Source of the DNA: Alphaproteobacteria bacterium
Lineage (GTDB): Bacteria; Pseudomonadota; Alphaproteobacteria; Geminicoccales; Geminicoccaceae
Direction of reading: 5' to 3'
Length of the DNA: 64,000 bases
Assembly (NCBI GenBank): GCA_026982705.1
Contig: JALSGP010000018.1
Span: 1-64,000, forward strand
Below are positions 50,804 through 63,967 of this stretch, piece after piece; position 1 is the first letter of the stretch; the number at the start of each line of letters is the position of its first letter. The notes below the pieces were generated by a model that was not told where the DNA came from, did not search any database, and saw only the letters and a list, made by a program, of their open reading frames with translations. Position numbers and translations under genes: made by a program.

Positions 50804-50833
50804 TTGCATCCCGCGGCGGACGGCGGCTAGCTT
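50804..50833 (+). promoter_or_regulatory. Putative promoter for the cas6-led operon
   Basis: TTGCAT (50804-50809) and TAGCTT (50828-50833) are spaced 18 nt within the 173-nt gap between divergent NE0113 and cas6 genes, 25 nt before the cas6 start. The match to consensus is moderate. Confidence 0.35.
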
Positions 50834-50858
50834 GGGGCGGAAAAGGCACCGTTCCGCC

Positions 50859-51860
50859 ATGGGCATTTTCGGCGTCCCGCATGTTCTGCCGCTCCCCATT
50901 CTCCGCCTCCGCCTGCGCTTCCGGGCCGAGAGCGAGGTGGCCTTCGCCGCCTTCGCCGGCTCCGCCTGGCGGGGCGCGCTCGGACACGCGCTCAAGCGCC
51001 TCGTCTGCGCGATGCGCACCCGCCGCCTCTGCGAGGGCTGTCCCCTCGAATTCTCCTGCATCCATACCACCGTCTTCGAGGCGCGACCGCCCCCGGACGC
51101 CGACCGGATGCGGCGCTATGTCCGCATCCCCCACCCCTTCGTGCTGGATCCCCTGACGCCCACGCCCTGCCGGCTGAGGCCCGGGGAGGTGTTCGAACTG
51201 GAACTGCGCCTCTTCGGGCGGGCGGCCGATCACGCCGTCTATCTGGTGCGGGCGCTGGCGGAGGCGGCGGCGCGGGGGGTGGGCGCGGGACGCGGCCGGC
51301 TCGCCCTCGAAGCGGTGCGCGACGGCTGGAACGGAGCGGAGGAGGCACCGCGGCCGCGGCCACCCGCGGCGCCCCCCGCGCCGCGCCGGATCGAGGTGCG
51401 GCTGGACCGGCCCCTTCGGCTCGCCGTGGAGGGTCGCCTACTCTCTCCCGAACGTTTCCGGCCCGGGCCCTTCCTGATGGCGCTGGTGCGGCGCACGTCG
51501 CTCCTCTGCGCCTTCCACGGCGAGGCGCCGCTCGAACTCGACTTCCGGAGGCTGCGCGAGATCGCCCACGGCCTCGAGGCCGAGCACGCGACCCTCGCCT
51601 GGCGGGAGCAGCGCCGCCGTTCCGCCCGCCAGGGCGGTCTCGTGCCCATGGGCGGGATCGTCGGCCGCTTCGTCCTCGACCTCGCCGGCGCCGAGGCGTT
51701 CTGGCCCTTCCTCCACGCCGGCCGCTGGCTGCACCTGGGCAAGGGGGCGACCATGGGCATGGGCCGGATCGGGGTGGGGGCGGCCGGTCTGCCCGCTGCG
51801 GCCATGGCCGGAGCCTCGACCATTTCCCACCATGAGGATCGGACGACGGGTGTGCGATGA
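50859..51860 (+). CDS. cas6: CRISPR pre-crRNA processing endoribonuclease Cas6
   Basis: The 333-residue RAMP protein starts MGIFGVPHVLPLPILRLRLRFRAESEV. It shows a Cas6-type pattern with CEGCPLEFSCIHTTVFE in the middle and the Gly-rich loop HLGKGATMGMGRIGV at the C-terminus, typical of the second RRM of Cas6 enzymes. It would cut the array transcript within repeats to release crRNAs with an 8-nt 5' tag. The ribosome-binding site (AAAGG) is weak. A Pro/Arg-rich insertion (about 158-175) separates the two halves. Its stop overlaps the cas10 start (ATGA). Confidence 0.85.
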   Translation: MGIFGVPHVLPLPILRLRLRFRAESEVAFAAFAGSAWRGALGHALKRLVCAMRTRRLCEGCPLEFSCIHTTVFEARPPPDADRMRRYVRIPHPFVLDPLTPTPCRLRPGEVFELELRLFGRAADHAVYLVRALAEAAARGVGAGRGRLALEAVRDGWNGAEEAPRPRPPAAPPAPRRIEVRLDRPLRLAVEGRLLSPERFRPGPFLMALVRRTSLLCAFHGEAPLELDFRRLREIAHGLEAEHATLAWREQRRRSARQGGLVPMGGIVGRFVLDLAGAEAFWPFLHAGRWLHLGKGATMGMGRIGVGAAGLPAAAMAGASTISHHEDRTTGVR

Positions 51861-54370
51861 GCGAAACCTTACCGAGCATTCACGAACTCGCCATCGGTGC
51901 GTTCCTCCACGACATCGGCAAGCTCGGCCAGCGGGCGTCGTCCGAGGAAGCGCTGCCGGAGTACGTGCGCAACAACGAGGCCGAGTGGCTGCCCGAGGTC
52001 GGCGGCGGTCGCTACGGCTATCGGCACGTGCTGTTCACCGAAGCGTTCTTCGAGGCGTGCGGGCACGCCCTTCCCGCCGGGATCGACCGCAACCATGCGC
52101 GTATCGCCGCCGTCTACCACCACAAGCCGGACGACGCGCGTCCCTGGACCTGGCTCGTGACCGTCGCCGACCGCATCGCCTCCGGTGCCGAGCGCAAGGA
52201 GAAGGACGCGGCCCACGAGCTCGAGACCGGTGGCCGAGGGGCCTTCCGCACCACGCCGCTGCTCGCCCTGCAGACCCGCATCGACATCGGTCGTGCCGAG
52301 ACCACGACGGGCTGGTATCCGCCGCGGCCGCTCACGCCCGAGGCGCTGATGCCGGGTGGCCAACCGTCCAACGAGGAGATGCTCGAGGGCTATCGGCGGC
52401 TGTGGGAGGATTTCCATGAGGGTTTCCGGGCCCTGAGCGCGGCCCGGACCGTCGACCATTTCCACCAGGGGCTGATCGCTCTCTCCGAACGGCTGCTGTG
52501 GGCGGTCCCGTCATCCACCCGGGACGAGCCCGACATCCCGCTCCACGACCACGCCTTGGCGGTGGCGGCCATCGCCTGCTGTCTCCACCGCTGGCACGAG
52601 GCCCAAGGCAGCCTCGAGGATCCGGCACGCATCCAGGCCATGGACGTGCCGAAATTCCGGCTGCTGGAGGGGGATCTCTCCGGCATCCAGTCGGCCCTCT
52701 TCCTCCTCGAACGCGAACAGGTGAAGGGGATAAATCGCATCCTGCGCGGCCGCTCCTTCCTGATCGGGGCGCTCACCGAGGCGGCGGCGCTGCGGGTGCG
52801 GCGGAAGCTGGACCTTCCGCCCTATGTGGTGCTGCTGCGCGCCGGCGGCCGCTTCACCATGCTGCTCCCCGATCGCGCGGACATCGAGGAGACCATCGAC
52901 GGGCTGCAGCAGGACATCGATCGCTGGCTGGTGAAGACCTGGGCGGGGGAGATCGCCCTCCAACTCGCGCTGAGCGAACCGCTGCGCGGCCACGACTTCA
53001 TGCGGGCCGGAGGCGCCTGGTCGAAGACCTGGCGCCGCTTCCGTGAGCGGGTGGAGGCGGCGAAGCAGCACCCCCTCCGTCATGTCATGGAGGAGCCCGT
53101 GCTTAACCTTGCCCTCGACTATCCGGAGGGTGCGGACGGCAGCTGTCGCGCCTGTGGAGTGATGCCGCGTCCCGAGAACGGGGAGCACTGTCCCGCTTGC
53201 GAGGCCGCCCACGGGCTCGGGCGGGATCTGCCCAGGGCGCGGGCGGTGTTCTGGAAGAAGGCCGAGAAGAACCTCGCGCTTTTCGGCGAGATCGCGGTGG
53301 CCGCCAAGAACGTGCTGCCGAAGGCGCTCGAAGAGGACGAATTCGCCGGTTTCGCGATCGCCGGGGCGGCGGAGGACGACCGGCCGCGGGCGCTGCCGTG
53401 GCGCTTCTACGCCAATCACGTGCCGCGCTGGCGGGCGGGGGAGTGGGACGATCTGCGCTACGATCCGGTGATCCGCACCGAGGAGGACATCGAGGAACTC
53501 CGGGAAGGTGGCATCAAGACCATGGCCTTCCTCGCGCACGCCGACCGCGAGCGGGTCGAGGGACGTTGGGTGGGCCGACCCATGTTGGCCGTGCTCAAGG
53601 CCGACGTGGACCATCTGGGGCAGGTCTTCGCGCGCGGCTTTCCGGCAGAGGACCGCACCCTCGGGCGCACCGTCGCCCTCTCGCGCCTGATGGACGCCTT
53701 CTTCTCCGGCTGGCTGCCGTGGCGGCTGCGCACCGATGCGCGCTTTCGCGACATCTACACCGTCTATGCCGGTGGTGACGATCTGCTGCTGATCGGCCCC
53801 TGGCTCACCACCATCCGCTTCGCCCTGGAGCTGCGCGAGACCTTCGCGCGTTTCGCCGGCGGCAATGGCAACCTCACCCTCTCCGCCGGCATCGAGTTCG
53901 CAGACCCGCGCGAGCCCCTCAACCGCTCGGTCCAGCGCGCCGAGGAGCGACTGGAGAGGGCGAAGGGGGCCGGGGACAAGGACCGCGTCTGCCTCGTCGT
54001 CGACGAGCCGATCACGTGGGAGCAGCTGCGCGAAGCACTGGCCGCGGCGGATTGGCTCCTGGAAGAGATCCGCGAGGGGCGCGTTTCCGACCGCTTCGTC
54101 CACGGCCTCCTGCGCTTCGCCGACATGAAGGCCAAGTCGGACCGACTCGGGGCTGCCGTCACACTGGCGGATCTCGACGCCGCCATGTGGAACGCGCGTT
54201 TCCAGTACGCCCTCGCACGTCAGTTCCCCACCGATACCCGGGATGCCGAGAAGAACCGCCGGAATGCGGAGGCCCGCGCCCGCTATCTCGGGCTGATCGG
54301 CGCACCGAAGCACGAGCCGCCGGTCCCCGCTCGCATTCCCATCACCATCGCGCTGTATCGGAACCGCTGA
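51857..54370 (+). CDS. cas10: Cas10 (Csm1), large subunit and cyclase of type III-A complex
   Basis: The 837-residue protein has an N-terminal HD domain with FLHDIGKL (H18, D19) and the Palm1 motif EGDLSGIQSALF. A zinc ribbon (CRACG at 430-434 with CPAC at 445-448) follows, then the GGDD cyclase motif (639-642) in YAGGDDLLLIG. HD nuclease and cyclic-oligoadenylate synthase sites both look intact, so it should both cut ssDNA and signal to the CARF proteins encoded around it. The start at 51857 overlaps the cas6 stop. Confidence 0.95.
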   Translation: MSETLPSIHELAIGAFLHDIGKLGQRASSEEALPEYVRNNEAEWLPEVGGGRYGYRHVLFTEAFFEACGHALPAGIDRNHARIAAVYHHKPDDARPWTWLVTVADRIASGAERKEKDAAHELETGGRGAFRTTPLLALQTRIDIGRAETTTGWYPPRPLTPEALMPGGQPSNEEMLEGYRRLWEDFHEGFRALSAARTVDHFHQGLIALSERLLWAVPSSTRDEPDIPLHDHALAVAAIACCLHRWHEAQGSLEDPARIQAMDVPKFRLLEGDLSGIQSALFLLEREQVKGINRILRGRSFLIGALTEAAALRVRRKLDLPPYVVLLRAGGRFTMLLPDRADIEETIDGLQQDIDRWLVKTWAGEIALQLALSEPLRGHDFMRAGGAWSKTWRRFRERVEAAKQHPLRHVMEEPVLNLALDYPEGADGSCRACGVMPRPENGEHCPACEAAHGLGRDLPRARAVFWKKAEKNLALFGEIAVAAKNVLPKALEEDEFAGFAIAGAAEDDRPRALPWRFYANHVPRWRAGEWDDLRYDPVIRTEEDIEELREGGIKTMAFLAHADRERVEGRWVGRPMLAVLKADVDHLGQVFARGFPAEDRTLGRTVALSRLMDAFFSGWLPWRLRTDARFRDIYTVYAGGDDLLLIGPWLTTIRFALELRETFARFAGGNGNLTLSAGIEFADPREPLNRSVQRAEERLERAKGAGDKDRVCLVVDEPITWEQLREALAAADWLLEEIREGRVSDRFVHGLLRFADMKAKSDRLGAAVTLADLDAAMWNARFQYALARQFPTDTRDAEKNRRNAEARARYLGLIGAPKHEPPVPARIPITIALYRNR

Positions 54371-54385: not shown

Positions 54386-54919
54386 ATGCCGAACCGGCAC
54401 GGTGGCCAACAGCGCCCATGGCAGAACGGTCCGAATACCCGGCCTTCCAGGAGGCCTGGTATCGAGGAGCGTCTGCGGTCGCAAGACAAGGTTCAGTACT
54501 TCACCGTCGGCAACGACACGCAAGACGGCGACAAGACGCGTCGCCCGATCCGGCCGGATCTCTTGGACGACGAGGCCGAACGGGTCGCGAAACTGATGCA
54601 GGACATTCCGGCCTCCCAGCTTCGTCGATTCTTCGGTACCGTGATGGATCTGAAACGTCGTCTGGAGGCGGATCCCGAGCTTCGCCAGAAACCCGAATTC
54701 ATTCAGGCCGAGCTGGCCTTTCTCAAGGCGTCTGCCGCCTATACCGCGAAGCGGCTCAACTACCACAGAAATGAACGTTGGCAAGGGGATCCTCTGGAAC
54801 TGGTCAGCTTCATGACCAGACATCGCAATTCGGTCAAGAGTGCTGACGACTTCGAGGCCTTCGCCAAGCACTTCGAAGCCGTTATGGCCTTTCACAAGGT
54901 CTATGGCCGCGAGCGTTGA
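54386..54919 (+). CDS. csm2: Csm2 small subunit of type III-A complex
   Basis: The 177-residue protein carries the Csm2 helical core (DDEAERVAKLMQDIPASQLRRFFGTVMDLKRRLE and FLKASAAYTAKRLNYH). It ends with the SAADDFEAFAKHFEAVMAFHK-like segment (here KSADDFEAFAKHFEAVM), followed by AFHKVYGRER. The N-terminal ~50 residues are basic and disordered (RHGGQQRPWQNG). Csm2 lines the crRNA backbone in the complex. The ATG follows GGAGGAGG. Slightly lower GC than cas10. Confidence 0.9.
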   Translation: MPNRHGGQQRPWQNGPNTRPSRRPGIEERLRSQDKVQYFTVGNDTQDGDKTRRPIRPDLLDDEAERVAKLMQDIPASQLRRFFGTVMDLKRRLEADPELRQKPEFIQAELAFLKASAAYTAKRLNYHRNERWQGDPLELVSFMTRHRNSVKSADDFEAFAKHFEAVMAFHKVYGRER

Positions 54920-54930
54920 GGGAACCGATC

Positions 54931-55701
54931 ATGACCGATATCGCCTATCTCGGCCGAGCCGTCGTGACCGGCAGAATCGAACTCCTCTCCGGTCTCCACA
55001 TCGGTGCAGGCAAGGACGTCATCGAAATCGGCGGGCTCGACAATCCCGTCGTGAAGCATCCCCATACGGACCATCCCTATATCCCGGGCTCCAGCCTCAA
55101 GGGTCGGCTGCGTTTCCTGATGGAATGGGCGTTCAACAAAATCCGGAGGGATGGCCAGCCTTGGGGTTTCGATGGCAACGACCCGTTCCAGCAGTTCGAG
55201 AACGACGATCCGATTCTGCGCATCTTCGGTACGCCGGCCAAGAAGGACCTCTGGTCCGCCGGACCGACACGGCTGATCGTCCGCGACGCGTTCCTGAACG
55301 AGACATGGCTCAAGGAAGCACTCGCGAAGGGATTTCCCCTCACCGAGGAGAAGACCGAGGTCGTCATCGACCGCATCGCGGGCAAGGCGCACGAGCGCGT
55401 GGGCCCGCGACAGATGGAGCGCGTGCCGGCCGGGGCCGTGTTCGACATGGAACTGGTGTTCCGCGTCTTCGAAGTGAACGGGGACCGAGGTCGACGGGAC
55501 AAGGAGTGCTTCAACTGGCTGCTGGCCGGCTTGTCGCTGCTGGAGCAGGATGCCCTCGGCGGTTCCGGCTCGCGCGGCTACGGGCGCATCCGCTTCCGCG
55601 ACCTGCAGGTCGTCTGGGAGGGGCAGCGCTGCGACATCGACAACCGCTTCCGCGTCGAGCGCTTCGACCCGCAGACGGCTCCCGCCATCGTCGAGCTCTG
55701 A
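54931..55701 (+). CDS. csm3: Csm3 backbone subunit and target-RNA nuclease
   Basis: The 256-residue RAMP protein has IELLSGLHIGAGKDVIEIGGLDNPVVKHP. D37 matches the catalytic Asp of Csm3, which cuts target RNA every 6 nt. YIPGSSLKGRLRFLMEWAF and GGSGSRGYGRIRF are the RAMP glycine-rich motifs. The ATG follows GAGGGAACC, 11 nt after csm2. It forms the multi-copy crRNA-binding filament. Confidence 0.92.
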   Translation: MTDIAYLGRAVVTGRIELLSGLHIGAGKDVIEIGGLDNPVVKHPHTDHPYIPGSSLKGRLRFLMEWAFNKIRRDGQPWGFDGNDPFQQFENDDPILRIFGTPAKKDLWSAGPTRLIVRDAFLNETWLKEALAKGFPLTEEKTEVVIDRIAGKAHERVGPRQMERVPAGAVFDMELVFRVFEVNGDRGRRDKECFNWLLAGLSLLEQDALGGSGSRGYGRIRFRDLQVVWEGQRCDIDNRFRVERFDPQTAPAIVEL

Positions 55702-55704
55702 ACG

Positions 55705-56634
55705 ATGCTCCACCGCGTCACGATCCGGCTCACGGCCCCGCTCGGCACGCCCGTGGTCTCCGGCACCCTTTTCGGCCACCTGTGCTGGGCCATGGTGGAT
55801 CTGCGCGGCGAAGAGGCCCTGGCCGACTGGCTCACCGCCATGGAGACCGGCAGACGGCCGCCCTTCCTGCTCTCCGATGCCTTTCCGGCCGGCTTCCTGC
55901 CGCGACCGCTGATGCCGCCCCGATGGCCCGAGGGCGATCCCCCGCTCGAACGGGCGACGAAGTGGAAGAAGGCGCGCAAGGCCGTGCTCGTGCGGCGGGA
56001 GGATTTCCTGGAGCTCAGGAAGGGCGCCCCCGAGGCGGCGTGGGCGGAGGCGGCGGCGGACGCCTCACCGCCCGAGCCCGAGGAGCACCGCCACGCGCAC
56101 AATCGCATCGACCGGATCCGCAACACCACCCCCGAGAGCGCCGGCATCTGGTTCGTGGACGACCTCTGGTACGACGGCCGGGACGGCCGTGACCGGCTCG
56201 ACGTCTACGTCGACACCGACCTCGATGCGGCGCTGCTGCGCGATCTCTTCACCCTCGTCGGCGAGAACGGCTATGGGCGCGACATCACCCACGGGCGCGG
56301 TTTCTTCGCCGTCGAGGAGCTGGCCCCGGACGGCGGGCTTGTGGCTTTCGAGGGCAACCGCCTCGTCTCCCTCTCCCGCGGGTGCCTCACGGACAACATG
56401 CGGGAGCCCCGCTATCGTCGCACCACCCACTACGGCAAGCTCGCCATCCGCATGAACGCGCTCACCGGCCGTCCGTGGAAGAAGCCGATCCTCCTCACCC
56501 TGCCCGGGGCGAGTTTCCGCCCCGCGGACGACGGGCCCTTCGGCCGCCTGCTGGCCGGGGTGCACCTCGATCGGCCCGAGATCCGCTTCAACGCGTGGCA
56601 TCTCGCCATTCCCTATCGGGAGGACGCGTCATGA
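55705..56634 (+). CDS. csm4: Csm4, crRNA 5'-tag-binding subunit
   Basis: The 309-residue RAMP protein begins MLHRVTIRLTAPLGTPVVSGTLFGHLCWAMV, typical of Csm4, and carries LVGENGYGRDITHGRGFFAVEEL and VSLSRGCLTDNMREPRYRRTTHYGKL. Csm4 caps the complex at the crRNA 5' tag next to Cas10. It starts 3 nt after csm3, and its stop overlaps the csm5 start. Confidence 0.9.
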   Translation: MLHRVTIRLTAPLGTPVVSGTLFGHLCWAMVDLRGEEALADWLTAMETGRRPPFLLSDAFPAGFLPRPLMPPRWPEGDPPLERATKWKKARKAVLVRREDFLELRKGAPEAAWAEAAADASPPEPEEHRHAHNRIDRIRNTTPESAGIWFVDDLWYDGRDGRDRLDVYVDTDLDAALLRDLFTLVGENGYGRDITHGRGFFAVEELAPDGGLVAFEGNRLVSLSRGCLTDNMREPRYRRTTHYGKLAIRMNALTGRPWKKPILLTLPGASFRPADDGPFGRLLAGVHLDRPEIRFNAWHLAIPYREDAS

Positions 56635-57797
56635 GGAGTGACGTGGTGTGGCGGGGAGTGGCCTGGGCGGTCACGCCCGTGCACGTCGGCGCCGGCGAGA
56701 CCTGGACCAAGCAGGATTATGTGGTGCGCGACGGCAAGCTGTGCCGGATCGATCCCGCCCGCGTGGTGGCCCGCATGGATCCGGTGCGCCGGCGGGAGTT
56801 CGAGCGGGCGGTGGATCGGGGCGATCTCCAGGGTGCCCATTGCATTCTGGCTGAAGCCGTGGACGCGGACGACATCCTCGAGCGCATCCCGCTCGGCCCG
56901 CGGGCACGGCAGGAACTCGAGCAGGCCCAGAAGGATGCGCGGCGCTGGGGCGAGGTGATGCCCTTCATCCGCACCGGCGGGCGCCCCTTCATCCCCGGCT
57001 CCTCGATCAAGGGCGCCATCCGCACGGCGCTCCTGAACGCCGTGGTGCAGGCACGCGGCCTCGGTCCCGCAAAGCAGGTTATCGCCGGCGCCGGTGCGCG
57101 GACCTCCGATCGACTGCAGGAATGGGCCTTCGGCTACGACGGCCGTCACACCGAACAGGATCCCTTCCGCTTCGTCGAGGTCGGCGACGTACCGTTGCCG
57201 GACGGGGCAACGCGCATCGATCGAGTGGTGAACTGGAATCCGAAGGCTGAGGAAAGCCAGGGGATCCAGATGCACGTGGAGCGGCTCGCCTGTCGTCTCG
57301 AGGGCACCGTGCGCGTGCCATTGACCATCCGGCTCGATCTCGGCCGCCTTGAAGCCGCCCGTCGGTGCGATGCCGGCCCCGGACACCGGCGGACGCCGTC
57401 CTTCCCTCTTACGGAGGCGGGGATCCGCAAAGCCGTCAAGGCCTTCTACGCGGCGCGCTATCGGTGGGAGCGTGACCGGTTCTTCGAGGAACAGGCGAGG
57501 TTCCTGGACTCGATGTTCGCGGTGAAGATCGGAAACGGGACGCTGTCGCTGGACGAACTGTTGAAGCGTGACGACTTCCTTCTGCTGCGCGTCGGCCGCT
57601 TCACCCAGTTCGAGAGCAAATCGGTCGACGATCTCCGGCGCGGTTACGCCCCTCAGCGCAGACGCACGATCCCTGAGGGCTCCACGCGCAACGTGATGGA
57701 TGTCCAGTTGCGCACTTCCCAAGGGAAAACCGTCCACCGCCGGCTTCCCTTCGGCTGGGTGCTGGTGTGGCTGCGGGAGATCCGGGTGCAGTCGTGA
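56631..57797 (+). CDS. csm5: Csm5, complex-capping RAMP subunit
   Basis: The 388-residue RAMP protein starts MRSDVVWRGVAWAVTPVHVGAGETWTKQDYVVRDGKL and carries FIPGSSIKGAIRTALLNAV plus a long helical insertion. It ends RLPFGWVLVWLREIRVQS. Csm5 binds the crRNA 3' end and helps recruit trimming nucleases. The ATG overlaps the csm4 stop (ATGA). It is followed, 11 nt later, by the CARF-HEPN gene. Confidence 0.9.
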   Translation: MRSDVVWRGVAWAVTPVHVGAGETWTKQDYVVRDGKLCRIDPARVVARMDPVRRREFERAVDRGDLQGAHCILAEAVDADDILERIPLGPRARQELEQAQKDARRWGEVMPFIRTGGRPFIPGSSIKGAIRTALLNAVVQARGLGPAKQVIAGAGARTSDRLQEWAFGYDGRHTEQDPFRFVEVGDVPLPDGATRIDRVVNWNPKAEESQGIQMHVERLACRLEGTVRVPLTIRLDLGRLEAARRCDAGPGHRRTPSFPLTEAGIRKAVKAFYAARYRWERDRFFEEQARFLDSMFAVKIGNGTLSLDELLKRDDFLLLRVGRFTQFESKSVDDLRRGYAPQRRRTIPEGSTRNVMDVQLRTSQGKTVHRRLPFGWVLVWLREIRVQS

Positions 57798-57808
57798 GGA
57801 GAGCACCC

Positions 57809-59443
57809 ATGCACCGCCTCGTCACCTTTCTCGGCATTCCCAGGATCTCGAAAAAACACGAGTCGGGATACGAATCGACCATCTATCGTCTCCTCGATCC
57901 CGACGGACGGGGCCGGGACGAGACGATAGAAACCCCGTGGATCGCCGTCGCCCTGGTCGAACTGTTCCACCCCGACGAAGTCGTGATCGTCAGCACGGAA
58001 AGCGCCTGGAACATGGGTCTCGACGGGGCGGCATACACCCACGGAGAAGCTCTGGTCCACGAGCTTCGACGGCGCGATGTTCGGGTCGAGCGGCGGATCA
58101 TTCCCACCGGCCTCACACACGGAGATCTGTGGGCCCAATTCACGACGCTCAAAGATGCCCTGCGTGGTCCGGCCCGCGAGATCACCCTCGACATCACCCA
58201 CGGCCTCCGCAGCCAGCCCTTCTTCGCGGCGGCCGCCGTCGCTTTCGTCGGCATGGTCGCCCCCGATCGTCCCCGACTCCGCATCGTGTACGGTGCTCAC
58301 GATCTGATCCGGACTCTCCGGCTGGGCTACGCCCCCATCGTCGATCTCTCCCTGTTCGGGGAGATCCTCGACTGGACCCATGACCTGCTGCTGTTCCTCA
58401 AATCGGGCCGCATCGCCGGGCTCGCCCGGCGCGCCGAGGTCATCGGCCGGGAGCTCCGCAAGCGCTGGGCCGATGCCGGCAAGCAGGGCGAGCCGCCCAG
58501 GATCCGCGAGTTTGCCGACGCCGTCGAGGCCTTCGCCCGCGACCTCCAGACCATCCGTACCGGCGCGCTGCTGCTGGGCGGTGTGGAGAATGGCAGGCGC
58601 ACGCCGTCCAGCGCGAAGCGCCTGCGGAAGGCCGTCGCCGCCGCCCGCGCCGACGTGGAACGCCATTTGCCACCGCTCGCCGACGTGCTGGATCGTATCG
58701 AAGAGATGGCCAGGCCCCTGGTCTTCGACGGTGAGGCCCTGGTCGGCGAAAAGGCCCGCGACGTGCTCGCCGCCCTCGCCCAACTGTACGTGAACATGGG
58801 CCGTTATATGGAGGCGCTCACTACGGTTCGGGAAGCCTTCATCTCCCTGCAGGGGCCAGCTGAAATTGCCGAACCAGGTCTTCCGCATTATGATCACGAG
58901 CGCCGACGCGAAGTCGACAATATGATGAGATGCAAATTAGGAAAATTATTTGAAAGCCTTGCGCAATTCAGGAATGATCTAAATCATGCAGGTTACCAGA
59001 AAATTCCGAATCCTGCTAAAACATTGATAGAGCAGGCTCATCATTGGGCCGAGGAGCTGGCCAAGGCTTCTTGCGCGCCTTCGGTCTTCGTCAATCTCTC
59101 CAATCACGCCTCGAACGAGTGGTCGGAAGATCAGCGCGCTGCAGCACGGGAGTTTGCGGAAGCGGTCATCGACGTTCCCTTCCCCGAGGTGCCGCCCGAT
59201 GCGGACGGAACGTGGATCGAGCAAAAGGCCGAAGAAGTGCTCGCTTCCCTTCCCCCGGAGACCACCCACGCCCTGGTGCAGGGCGAATTCACCCTCACCA
59301 TGGCGCTGGTGAAGCGTCTTCAGGCCCGCGGCATCCGCTGTCTCGCCGCCACCAGCGAGCGGCGCGTGAGCCGGACGGAAGACGGCCGCGAGCTGCGCGA
59401 GTTCCGCTTCGTGCGCTTTCGCGACTATCCCCCGCTCGCCTGA
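57809..59443 (+). CDS. csx2: CARF-HEPN ribonuclease (Csx2/Csx1 type) with an extra C-terminal NLSNH-type domain
   Basis: The 544-residue protein begins with a CARF domain (RLVTFLGIPRISKKHESGYEST, EITLDITHGLRSQPFFAAAAV, residues 1-170). A helical region with a HEPN nuclease site FRNDLNHAG follows (R388, H393; RX4H). Residues about 426-544 form a further domain starting VFVNLSNHASNEWSEDQRAAA and ending FRFVRFRDY. I recognise that block as a small protein family found alone in other genomes, probably Rossmann-like and possibly related to ring nucleases; this is inference. Cyclic oligoadenylate from Cas10 would bind CARF and activate HEPN RNA cleavage. The ATG at 57809 follows GAGGAGAG. A 120-nt stretch around the HEPN site is about 37% GC in this GC-rich locus. 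Confidence 0.85.
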   Translation: MHRLVTFLGIPRISKKHESGYESTIYRLLDPDGRGRDETIETPWIAVALVELFHPDEVVIVSTESAWNMGLDGAAYTHGEALVHELRRRDVRVERRIIPTGLTHGDLWAQFTTLKDALRGPAREITLDITHGLRSQPFFAAAAVAFVGMVAPDRPRLRIVYGAHDLIRTLRLGYAPIVDLSLFGEILDWTHDLLLFLKSGRIAGLARRAEVIGRELRKRWADAGKQGEPPRIREFADAVEAFARDLQTIRTGALLLGGVENGRRTPSSAKRLRKAVAAARADVERHLPPLADVLDRIEEMARPLVFDGEALVGEKARDVLAALAQLYVNMGRYMEALTTVREAFISLQGPAEIAEPGLPHYDHERRREVDNMMRCKLGKLFESLAQFRNDLNHAGYQKIPNPAKTLIEQAHHWAEELAKASCAPSVFVNLSNHASNEWSEDQRAAAREFAEAVIDVPFPEVPPDADGTWIEQKAEEVLASLPPETTHALVQGEFTLTMALVKRLQARGIRCLAATSERRVSRTEDGRELREFRFVRFRDYPPLA

Positions 59444-59894: not shown

Positions 59895-60872
59895 ATGACC
59901 AGCCTCTATGTCGACCGTCGCGACGCCCGTCTGGCCCTGGAGCGGGGCGCGCTGGTGGTGCGCATCCCCGGCGAACGGCCCCGCAGCGTACCGCTGCGCG
60001 GTCTCGAACGGCTGGTGCTGCGCTCGGGCCTCCATGTCGCCACTTCGCTCCTGGCCGAACTGTGGCGGCGGGACGTGGGGGTGCTGGTCCTGGCCGGCCG
60101 CGGCGAGGAGCCCACCGCCCGCTTCCTCGGCCGTCCCCGCCGCCAGCTCCGCCGCCGCCTCCTGCAGTACGAACTGGTGCGCGATCCCACCCGCCGCCTC
60201 GCCTTCGCCCGCGAGATCGTCGCCGCCCGCATCCGCGGCAGCCGCCGCCTGCTGGCCCGGCTGGAGGCGACGGGACGCGGCGCCCGCCACCGTCTGCGCG
60301 AGGCCCACGCGCGCCTCGCCGAGGCCGAGCAGGCCGCCTTCGCCGCGCCGGAGCTCCCCGTCCTGCTGGGCGTCGAGGGCAGTGCCGCCGCCGTCTTCTT
60401 CGAGGCCTACGGCACCCTGTTCCCGCCCGCCCTGGGCTTCGCCGGCCGCAACCGCCGGCCGCCCCGCGATCCCGTCAACGCCTGCCTCTCCCTCGGCTAC
60501 ACCCTGCTCCACGCCGAGGCCGCCCGCCACGCCCGCCTCCACGGCTTCGATCCCATGCTGGGCGCGCTGCACGCCCCGGCCGCGGGGCGCGAGTCCTTCG
60601 CCTGCGATCTGGTGGAGCCGCTGCGCTGCCACGTCGAGCGCTTCGTCGCCGATCTCTTCGCCGAACGGGTGCTGCGGGCCCGTGACTTCACCCGTAGCGG
60701 CGAGGCCTGCCACCTCGCCCGGACGGCCCGCTCGCGCTTCTACGAACGCTTCGAGGCCCTGCGCCCGGGCCTCGCCCGCCTGCTCGCCCGCCTCTGCCGC
60801 CGCTGGGCGCGGGAGCTGGAGCGGCGGGTTCCCCTCACCGTTCCCCTCGACGACGACGGAGACCTGCCGTGA
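59895..60872 (+). CDS. cas1: Cas1 integrase (catalytically complete)
   Basis: The 325-residue protein has a Cas1 N-terminal beta-sandwich (SLYVDRRDARLALERGALVVRIPG, GLHVATSLLAELWRRDVGVLVL). A helical catalytic domain follows with E161 in GVEGSAAAVFFEAYG, H226 in FDPMLGALHAPAAG and D238/E241 in FACDLVEPLR. All metal-binding residues are present. It should catalyse spacer integration at the leader end. There is no reverse-transcriptase or Cas6 fusion. Its last 4 nt overlap the next gene (GTGA). Confidence 0.93.
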   Translation: MTSLYVDRRDARLALERGALVVRIPGERPRSVPLRGLERLVLRSGLHVATSLLAELWRRDVGVLVLAGRGEEPTARFLGRPRRQLRRRLLQYELVRDPTRRLAFAREIVAARIRGSRRLLARLEATGRGARHRLREAHARLAEAEQAAFAAPELPVLLGVEGSAAAVFFEAYGTLFPPALGFAGRNRRPPRDPVNACLSLGYTLLHAEAARHARLHGFDPMLGALHAPAAGRESFACDLVEPLRCHVERFVADLFAERVLRARDFTRSGEACHLARTARSRFYERFEALRPGLARLLARLCRRWARELERRVPLTVPLDDDGDLP

Positions 60873-61654
60873 GCGTGCTCTACGTCGATGCCGTCGGCAT
60901 GCCGGCCCGCATCCGCCTCGACGGTCCCGCCCTCGCCCTGGAGCGGCCGGAGGGACCGCGTGGTCGCATGCCCCTGCGGCGCCTCTCGCGGGTGGTGGTC
61001 CGCGGACCGGCCGCACTGGAGACGGGAGTGCTCGCGACCCTCCTCCACCGGGGCATTCCTCTGACGGTCCTGGCGGGTGACGGCCGCCTGCTGGGCCTCT
61101 GCCTGCCCGCCCACGCCCGTCGCACCGACACCCGCGCCCTGCTGGAGGAGGCGGAGCTGCGCGGCCGTCTGGAGGCGGTCCGCGCCACCTGGCCGGCGGC
61201 GGAGGAACGGCGTCTCGTCCTCGACCTCCGCACCACCCTCGGCCTGCCCCTCACCGATCTGCGCCGGCGCCGCGTCGACCGCCGCCTCCACACCCTGCTG
61301 GACGCCGCCGGCGGCCCCCCGGCCGAGGACCTGCTGCGCTGGGGTGCGAGCCTGCTGGACGCCCATCTCGCCCGCAGGCTGTGGGAGGAGGGACTGGGCC
61401 GCGCCTGGCAGGGCGCCGATCCCGAGCGCTGGAACCTGCGGGAGACGCTGGGGCACATCCTGATCCTCGCCCTGGTGCCCACGCTCCTGGAACTCGCTCG
61501 TTTCGAGGCCGAGCGTGGCCGCCCCGACGACGACCGTCGCCTCTATCGCCGCCTCGCCCGCCGCTACGAGCGCGAGGCGGGCCGCCTCGAACGCCTGATG
61601 GACGGCATGCTGGCCCGTCTGCGCCGGCGCCTGCGGGAGGAGCTCGAGGGATGA
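60869..61654 (+). CDS. Cas1 paralogue, shortened and lacking the catalytic triad
   Basis: The 261-residue protein starts MSVLYVDAVGMPARIRLDGPALALERPEGP, with RMPLRRLSRVVVRGPAALETGVLATLLHRGIPLTVLAGDGRLLGLCLP. It is clearly a Cas1-type N-terminal beta domain. The C-terminal part (residues about 95-261) is helical but has no counterpart of the GVEG, DPxxGxLH or DLVEP motifs, and it is about 60 residues shorter than Cas1. I infer a structural, non-catalytic Cas1 partner in the integration complex. It sits between cas1 and the second cas2 with 4-nt overlaps on both sides, so it is part of one operon. Confidence 0.75.
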   Translation: MSVLYVDAVGMPARIRLDGPALALERPEGPRGRMPLRRLSRVVVRGPAALETGVLATLLHRGIPLTVLAGDGRLLGLCLPAHARRTDTRALLEEAELRGRLEAVRATWPAAEERRLVLDLRTTLGLPLTDLRRRRVDRRLHTLLDAAGGPPAEDLLRWGASLLDAHLARRLWEEGLGRAWQGADPERWNLRETLGHILILALVPTLLELARFEAERGRPDDDRRLYRRLARRYEREAGRLERLMDGMLARLRRRLREELEG

Positions 61655-61953
61655 GCCGCCCGCGTCCCGCGCCCTGGCTCGTGGCCTACGACATCGCCCA
61701 CCCGCGCCGGCTGCGGCGGGTGCACGCGATTCTCGTGCGCTACGGACTGCCGGTGCAGTACTCGGTGTTTCTCGTCCACGCCACGCCCGCCGGTCTCGAC
61801 GCCCTCTTCGACGAACTGGCGGCCGTGATCCATCCCCGCCACGACGATGTGCGGGCCTATCGACTCCCGCCGGAACTGTGGTACAGATGTGTCGGGAGCC
61901 CGGCGCTGCCGCGGGGTCTCCTCGCGGCCTTGGAGGGTTTCGGCGTTGTGTGA
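61651..61953 (+). CDS. Second Cas2-like protein
   Basis: The 100-residue protein reads PWLVAYDIAHPRRLRRVHAILVRYGLPVQYSVFLVHATPAGLDALFDELAAVI. The Cas2 pattern has the conserved Asp14. It is clearly different from the first Cas2 in the window. Its start overlaps the stop of the Cas1 paralogue (ATGA). It lies directly before the CRISPR leader. A heterodimer of both Cas2 proteins is a possibility. Confidence 0.85.
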   Translation: MSRPRPAPWLVAYDIAHPRRLRRVHAILVRYGLPVQYSVFLVHATPAGLDALFDELAAVIHPRHDDVRAYRLPPELWYRCVGSPALPRGLLAALEGFGVV

Positions 61954-62080: not shown

Positions 62081-63967
62081 CTCTCACCACTTGCCCTGAT
62101 GAAGAAGGGATTAAGTCGCAAAGGGCTCTGGTGGCTTCGGGATTGCAGGTGCTCTCACCACTTGCCCTGATGAAGAAGGGATTAAGTCCCAGGGCGGGCG
62201 GAATAGGGACGGCTACCCCAGTGTCTCTCACCACTTGCCCTGATGAAGAAGGGATTAAGTCGCGCCACCCGCGGCGCGATGCGCCGCAGGGCGGCAACTC
62301 TCACCACTTGCCCTGATGAAGAAGGGATTAAGTCGGGACGAGCGTGAACCTCCTCGCGGAGGCGGAAGGTTCTCTCACCACTTGCCCTGATGAAGAAGGG
62401 ATTAAGTCGCCACTCCCCGCGGGGAGGGGACGAGCGTGAACCTCTCTCTCACCACTTGCCCTGATGAAGAAGGGATTAAGTCTCATGGTATATGTCCAAA
62501 AGACGATCCCAAAACCTCGAGACTCTCACCACTTGCCCTGATGAAGAAGGGATTAAGTCGTGGCGCGGCAAGAGCTGAAGGAGCCGCACAAGCTCTCACC
62601 ACTTGCCCTGATGAAGAAGGGATTAAGTCACCGCCCCCGGACAGGGGACCAACGGAGGGTTGTGACGCTCTCACCACTTGCCCTGATGAAGAAGGGATTA
62701 AGTCCTCGCGGAGGCGGAGGGTCCCGCCCCCGCGAGGGGGTCTCTCACCACTTGCCCTGATGAAGAAGGGATTAAGTCCGCGGAGGCGGAAGGTTCCGCC
62801 CCCGCGAGGAGGTGGACTCTCACCACTTGCCCTGATGAAGAAGGGATTAAGTCGGCACCGCTCGGGCGGCGAGCTCGCCCCAGTCGAGGGAGCTCTCACC
62901 ACTTGCCCTGATGAAGAAGGGATTAAGTCTCGACGATGATTGCAACCATGTCAATCCTCCTCGGCTCTCACCACTTGCCCTGATGAAGAAGGGATTAAGT
63001 CCCTCGCGGAGGCGGAGGGTTCCGCCCCCGCGAGGCGGTGGCTCTCACCACTTGCCCTGATGAAGAAGGGATTAAGTCCGCGAGGAGGTGGAGGAAGGTC
63101 CGCCCCCTCGTGTCGACTCTCACCACTTGCCCTGATGAAGAAGGGATTAAGTCGCCTCGCGGAGGCGGAGGGTTCCGCCCCCGCGAGGTGCTCTCACCAC
63201 TTGCCCTGATGAAGAAGGGATTAAGTCGGCGCGATGCGCCGCAGGGTGGCGAGCTCCCCGATGCCTCTCACCACTTGCCCTGATGAAGAAGGGATTAAGT
63301 CAGATGGCGGCACCGCTTGGGCGGCGAGCGCGCCCCAGCTCTCACCACTTGCCCTGATGAAGAAGGGATTAAGTCAGGGCGCGGATCACAGTGTTCCGCG
63401 CCCAATCCCGCCTCTCACCACTTGCCCTGATGAAGAAGGGATTAAGTCGTCGGCGAGGGCGAGGGCCGCCCTCGCCCCCTCGCCCTCTCACCACTTGCCC
63501 TGATGAAGAAGGGATTAAGAGGTCCTCCCGCTGCGGGAGGTCGTCACCTCCCGCAGCACCTCTCACCACTTGCCCTGATGAAGAAGGGATTAAGAGTCCC
63601 ACCGCCCCCGGATGGGAGCCCACCGGAGGGTGGTGGCTCTCACCACTTGCCCTGATGAAGAAGGGATTAAGAGGCACCGGACGAGCACTGACATACGCTT
63701 TCTCCCCCGCTCTCACCACTTGCCCTGATGAAGAAGGGATTAAGAGCCACTCAAGGAGGGCCGACCGTAGCCCCTCCGCCGCCGCCTCTCACCACTTGCC
63801 CTGATGAAGAAGGGATTAAGAGGCTGCGCGGAAATTCGGGGTCCCACGTTCCACGCTCTCTCACCACTTGCCCTGATGAAGAAGGGATTAAGAGGCCTCG
63901 CGGAGGCGGACGGTTCCGCCCCCGCGAGGACTCTCACCACTTGCCCTGATGAAGAAGGGATTAAGAG
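62081..63967 (+). CRISPR. CRISPR array, 26 repeats of 37 nt and 25 spacers
   Basis: Each repeat starts CTCTCACCACTTGCC and ends GGGATTAAGTC or GGGATTAAGAG. Starts are at 62081, 62152, 62225, 62298, 62372, 62446, 62523, 62593, 62668, 62742, 62817, 62893, 62965, 63042, 63117, 63191, 63265, 63339, 63412, 63485, 63560, 63637, 63710, 63786, 63858 and 63931. Spacers are 33-40 nt. Repeats 1-19 end in TC and repeats 20-26 in AG. The 3' end matches the ATTAA/ATTGA tag style of type III systems, so transcription should run rightward from the leader. Around 18 spacers hold GC-rich inverted repeats (see findings). The array may continue past the window edge. Confidence 0.98.

Follow-up and report, generated by a model that had tools for sequence, protein, structure and literature searches.

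Hairpin-forming spacers in a type III-A CRISPR system without a reverse transcriptase suggest adaptation that favours DNA structure

In Streptococcus thermophilus, a type III-A CRISPR system that is free of reverse transcriptase (RT) is reported to acquire hairpin-forming single-stranded DNA, taken from one strand and with start-codon regions favoured (Zhang et al. 2021, NAR 50:1562; PMC9048733). This mode of adaptation is described as favouring the coding strand and as requiring Cas1 and Cas2 alone, without a PAM. The RT-free type III-A system of S. epidermidis is described as favouring tRNA and rRNA genes (2022 study, PMC9048733), and for type III acquisition during phage infection in Thermus thermophilus the account given is of a strand bias seen in the survivors of infection (Artamonova et al. 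2020, PMC9048733). A preference of type III adaptation for hairpins has until now been reported mainly from a few laboratory systems, and it bears on the puzzle of why a memory system keeps guides that fold on themselves. Natural arrays with hundreds of spacers, read beside type I controls from the same genome, make such a preference measurable from sequence alone.

The DNA analysed here (the window) comprises the first 64,000 bases, at 71% GC, of a 68,246-base contig (C18) in a genome of 2.66 Mb and 48 contigs. Upstream of a CRISPR array (array A) it carries, on the forward strand, a complete type III-A (Csm) operon. This consists of cas6 (50832..51860 from the longest start, with the Cas6 domain at 51399-51770; PF10040, E 1.5e-12 in a profile search of the genome), csm1/cas10 (51857..54370; TIGR02578, E 1.3e-163), csm2 (54386..54919; TIGR01870, PF03750), csm3 (54916..55701; TIGR02582, E 6.6e-62), csm4 (55705..56634; TIGR01903, and PADLOC Csm4 with E 2e-59), csm5 (56634..57797; TIGR01899 for a longer open frame, RAMP Pfam for this start), a csm6-like gene for a CARF-HEPN effector fused to Csx20 (57767..59443; PADLOC CARF-HEPN-CSX16 and CSX20 models, E 5e-89 and 5e-66), cas1 (59895..60872; PF01867, E 1.2e-69), a second, diverged cas1 (60869..61654) and cas2 (61651..61953; PF09827, E 6e-15). 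All five of Csm1/Cas10, Csm2, Csm3, Csm4 and Csm5 exceed the curated cut-offs, and the type III-A assignment is completed by Cas6, by the CARF-HEPN effector and by an array of regular 37-nt repeats adjoining the adaptation module. Another Cas6 match lies on contig C10 (28338-28709), within a 1325-aa open frame.

The candidate catalytic residues of the first Cas1 are conserved, and E161, H226 and D238 are invariant across seven relatives. The second Cas1 has an N-terminal Cas1 match and is recognized by a PADLOC model (PDLC01185, 'diverged variant, second in the loci'); aligned across eight relatives, it shows none of the motifs that are conserved in the first Cas1. It is modelled as a Cas1 fold, with a pLDDT of 89 for the AlphaFold prediction, and among the Foldseek matches listed all are Cas1 or Cas1-fold proteins. 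Many of the related loci in our survey (see below) also hold such a motif-less second cas1 beside cas1. No match to RVT_1 reverse transcriptase was found anywhere in the genome, which is 99.7% complete, and the locus does not have the RT fused to or near cas1 that marks RT-associated type III adaptation.

Within the window, array A extends over 62081..63965 on the forward strand (26 repeats, 25 complete spacers), with 25 repeat-spacer units at 62081-63930, as the initial annotation had placed them, and a 26th repeat at 63931. It extends beyond the window, to roughly 68.15 kb on the contig; the whole array (to contig position 68153) has 72 repeats, between which lie 70 normal spacers and a single interval of 804 bases. 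That AT-rich interval (contig positions 66938-67741, L009) stands in place of a spacer after repeat 66, and in its open frame of about 265 aa no Pfam domain scored above threshold. Repeats measure 37 nt and vary in their final dinucleotide (TC, AG or AC), and these ends shift in blocks, TC in repeats 1-19, AG in 20-31 and AC from 32 onward, a change that alters the crRNA 5' tag. A second array (array B, contig C24) has 79 spacers and a repeat nearly identical to that of array A. Its spacer pairs B49/B52 and B57/B59 are identical, probably as internal duplications, and the reverse complement of spacer B35 resembles the 5' half of a tRNA; this was the sole tRNA-like spacer seen, and outside the array nothing in the host genome matched it at E<=0.01. 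A third array, on contig C9, adjoins a type I-G-like Cas4-Cas1.

The folding of every spacer was compared with that of 500 dinucleotide shuffles, with p<=0.05 defining a hairpin and p<=0.01 a strong hairpin, and 400 37-mers drawn from the window served as background. Among spacers 1-25, 12 (48%) were hairpins and 10 (40%) strong hairpins, with a mean z of -1.90, against 7% at p<=0.05 and a mean z of -0.22 for the window 37-mers. This comparison had been proposed in the initial annotation as a check on its claim that about 18 of the 25 spacers contain hairpins; the excess over shuffles and window 37-mers is real, but the count is 12, and spacers 4, 5, 8, 11, 16, 17 and 23, which it had included, fold no better than their own shuffles. 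The hairpins are those of spacers 3 (62262..62297, z -3.4), 9 (62705..62741), 10 (62779..62816), 12 (62930..62964, a weak one, whose reverse complement carries a Shine-Dalgarno sequence and ATG), 13 (63002..63041), 14 (63079..63116), 15 (63154..63190, MFE -31.4), 18 (63376..63411, z -4.5), 19 (63449..63484, z -3.2), 20 (63522..63559, z -5.7), 21 (63597..63636, z -4.6) and 25 (63895..63930, z -5.2), all on the forward strand. The individual structures that had been named were found again: the perfect 12-bp stem with a 4-nt loop in spacer 20, the bulged 14-bp stem in spacer 19, the stem in spacer 18 (measured as 9+2-bp) and CTCCCCGCGGGGAG in spacer 5.

The enrichment is equally strong when G-U pairs are disallowed. 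The reverse complements of spacers 1-25 fold slightly better than the spacers themselves (z -2.51 versus -1.90); compared over families, the difference between strands is not significant (p=0.27). The idea that hairpins are centred in spacers beyond expectation was rejected, since no difference from background was seen in their position inside the spacer.

As evidence, the 12 hairpin spacers are enriched but not independent, because six of them (9, 10, 13, 14, 15 and 25) come from a single phage site, spacer 14 carrying the hairpin next to that of the other five. The signal is weaker outside spacers 1-25, with hairpins in 20% of 45 spacers in the remainder of array A and in 29% of 77 in array B; pooled, arrays A and B have 43/149 (29%). 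When overlapping spacers were joined, partly by hand, the two arrays resolved into 77 families, of which 20 hold two or more spacers. One spacer per family still gave 21% hairpins, and the family-mean z was -0.69 against -0.22 for the window 37-mers (p=0.003). The observation of hairpin-rich spacers holds, although there are fewer of them than first counted and they are highly redundant.

These overlapping spacers represent related phage sequences sampled over and over. The largest family has 19 members, including spacers 4, 5, 9, 10, 13, 14, 15 and 25, all from one site of about 100 bases, and with frames chosen from the alignments its substitutions fall on codon positions 1, 2 and 3 at 12%, 12% and 21%. 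Recurrent sites fold more strongly than singletons (z -1.48 versus -0.61, p=0.009, or 0.002 without G-U pairs). An apparent placement of the main-site windows at folding minima (p=0.007 under independent placement) ranked only 9th of 64 circular shifts and was not counted. Same-site pairs number 35/5530 between type III arrays A and B and 8/6407 between type III and type I-G spacers (p=3.6e-6). Recurrence is therefore about fivefold rarer between type III and I-G than between the two type III arrays, making these sites hot spots of type III in particular.

Each site is also sampled on one strand. Same-site pairs in the host's own type III arrays are on the same strand in 86 cases and on opposite strands in 8, and by inspection 7 of those 8 lie within self-complementary sequence; elsewhere, the same-to-opposite counts are 40:1 for the type III spacers of a related complete genome (G008), 25:1 in survey arrays and 7:5 in the type I array of G008. 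Relative to mRNA, the strand sampled is mixed. A Shine-Dalgarno sequence with ATG is present in 10 spacers as the reverse complement and in 3 in the forward direction (raw counts), and by reading, three reverse complements would start like phage tail-sheath proteins. No tail-sheath prophage was found in the host genome. A blind codon test of the coding strand was ambiguous, with 10 of the host's families reverse and 9 forward, so that a phage coding origin is claimed for several families, from their sequence, with no fixed orientation. The proposal that all crRNAs are antisense to mRNA was dropped on the strength of this test and of a phage site that G008 spacers match in the mRNA sense.

That site came from the search for source phages. 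One pattern derived from the hairpin spacers of G008 matches an IMG/VR phage contig (L170, 6556-6584) in a gene, about 70 bases past the start codon, and three G008 spacers align with this hairpin at 96-97% identity over 24-29 bases, in mRNA-sense orientation. Such mRNA-sense type III spacers are unexplained if guides must be antisense. Since they would not pair with that mRNA, they speak against the idea that strand choice there arises because functional spacers are retained. For the host's own spacers, the proposed search against phages, plasmids and genomes gave no source. Array A spacers had no match in INPHARED or PLSDB, five DNA patterns built from spacers in the window had none in IMG/VR, and chimeric peptides of the spacer families had none in INPHARED or IMG/VR and chance-level matches only in class-level genomes. 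Compared with the host genome outside the arrays, 14 chosen spacers returned only weak pieces (26-49 bases, 78-93% identity, E about 0.008). A dispersed repeat or self-targeting was rejected as the origin of the main hairpin, whose matches at other places in the genome are all short, chance ones in coding sequence. The absence of source phages from INPHARED, PLSDB and IMG/VR, as searched here, is a weak point of a reading as hairpin-biased capture.

Type I arrays of the same genome act as a control. The host's own type I-G array, which has some phage sites in common with type III, shows 12% hairpins and a z of -0.55, between the window and type III values. Although the type III spacers are enriched in hairpin-forming sequence, their contrast with this array is not significant after family collapse (p=0.28); the spacer-level Fisher test (p=0.014) counts relatives repeatedly. 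In G008, strong hairpins make up 28/170 (16%) of type III and 2/104 (2%) of type I spacers (p=5e-5), a contrast that is weak once families are collapsed (p=0.039). Stratified over both genomes, the odds ratio is 2.6 (p=7.5e-4, counting spacers and not families). Recurrent sites in G008 again fold better than singletons (z -1.37 versus -0.73, p=0.045). One G008 array of 178 repeats (C1 2896723-2909428, L158) adjoins tandem cas1 genes, and because repeat matches in that genome number 316 over both strands, more arrays exist there than were read.

Beyond these two genomes the picture changes. Another genus was mixed, with 25% hairpins in the first array of G018 and 9-14% in its second arrays and in those of G004, and recurrent sites in G018 were not more structured (p=0.95). 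In a survey across diverse bacteria, 80 loci surrounding related cas1 genes yielded 43 arrays and 1,189 spacers, among which hairpins at p<=0.05 made up 8.8% where a second Cas1 was detected and 7.2% where it was not, about the background level; detection relied on similarity to known copies, and some may be missed. Tandem Cas1 as a general cause of the bias thus finds no support in this survey. Within the surveyed sample, strong hairpin bias is confined to the host's family.

We consider it somewhat probable that this is an RT-free type III-A system whose Cas1-Cas2 machinery prefers hairpin-forming phage DNA of about one spacer length. A phage DNA strand that is briefly single, through transcription, replication or end resection, could form a hairpin; this might give the integrase a short duplex-like prespacer, and would thereby flag the same sites repeatedly, one strand per site. 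The suggestion in the initial annotation that adaptation selects hairpins is supported by the excess over shuffles and genomic 37-mers, by the stronger hairpins at recurrent sites and by a clear surplus relative to the type I array of G008. A structure-blind machinery could nevertheless leave a similar record if hairpins abound in the host's phages and the count is inflated by the sampling of a few conserved sites across many phage variants. We regard such a source bias as possible but rather unlikely: much of the signal does lie within recurrent families, and the type I-G array is intermediate with no significant collapsed contrast, but the 16% versus 2% difference within G008 and the rarity of III versus I-G recurrence are against it. 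We infer single-stranded DNA, not RNA, as the substrate, and the integrase itself as the agent of the choice. The capture of folded phage mRNAs through an unrecognized reverse transcriptase would account for one strand per site, with structured fragments surviving RNases, and the slightly better folding of the reverse complements of spacers 1-25 is in its favour. It seems very unlikely, given a genome with no RVT_1 match, strands that do not differ over families, an enrichment equally strong without G-U pairs and an mRNA-sense orientation at the sole site matched to a phage contig.

It is about as improbable that acquisition is unbiased and hairpin spacers are merely kept longer or lost less, folded crRNAs being cheaper or folded DNA less prone to deletion. 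Hairpins are indeed present in old and new array segments alike. However, the two newer repeat blocks of array A are richer in them (14/31 versus 7/39 in the older, p=0.019, resting partly on one family), the opposite of slow enrichment, and retention leaves the repeated sampling of one site unexplained. An alternative role for the array had also been suggested, and folded crRNAs acting as structured small RNAs or regulators would be one form of it; nothing beyond the folding itself speaks for this. We give it almost no credence, because the csm operon is complete and accompanied by Cas6, Cas1, Cas2 and a CARF-HEPN effector, the 14 spacers tested have only weak pieces in the host genome outside the arrays, and several recurrent families read as phage genes, some with Shine-Dalgarno starts. 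Finally, any part played by the second Cas1 is speculation; nothing in the survey indicates that this protein by itself produces the bias. A more specific version, in which a tandem-Cas1 complex with a catalytically degenerate second Cas1 forms a structure-specific integrase for DNA hairpins in one family, probably of Alphaproteobacteria, and re-samples the same phage hairpins even in orientations useless as guides, is in our view doubtful.

Hairpin-favouring adaptation remains the best reading, and the host data fit the picture from S. thermophilus and S. epidermidis. With a full type III-A operon, and with a structure preference in RT-free type III-A adaptation already described (PMC9048733), the initial proposal of an undescribed system gives way to a strong natural-array case of a known acquisition preference, unusually strong in the host's bacterial family. 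The bias seems to differ strongly between related systems, so its genetic basis is testable. As described in PMC9048733, the S. thermophilus system has in common with ours its type III-A class, the lack of an RT, spacers of about 36 nt, a hairpin preference and one favoured strand; its spacers lie near start codons, and ours carry Shine-Dalgarno and ATG signals in the raw counts of 10 reverse-complement versus 3 forward. Acquisition there was experimental, from plasmids and the host genome, at replication and transfer origins, terminators and tRNA or rRNA genes, whereas ours is read from natural arrays, with many hairpins apparently in high-GC phage coding sequence, a tandem cas1 and recurrent hot sites. 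In contrast to the S. thermophilus case as reported there, the bias of the host's type is strong in one family and absent from most related systems. Where the S. epidermidis system is said (PMC9048733) to favour structured tRNA and rRNA regions, our host has the single tRNA-like spacer B35. The T. thermophilus type III system, by the same account, resembles ours in being RT-free, with phage-derived spacers and a strand bias, but differs in that at least one hot site in the host's relative is sampled in the orientation that would not pair with mRNA.
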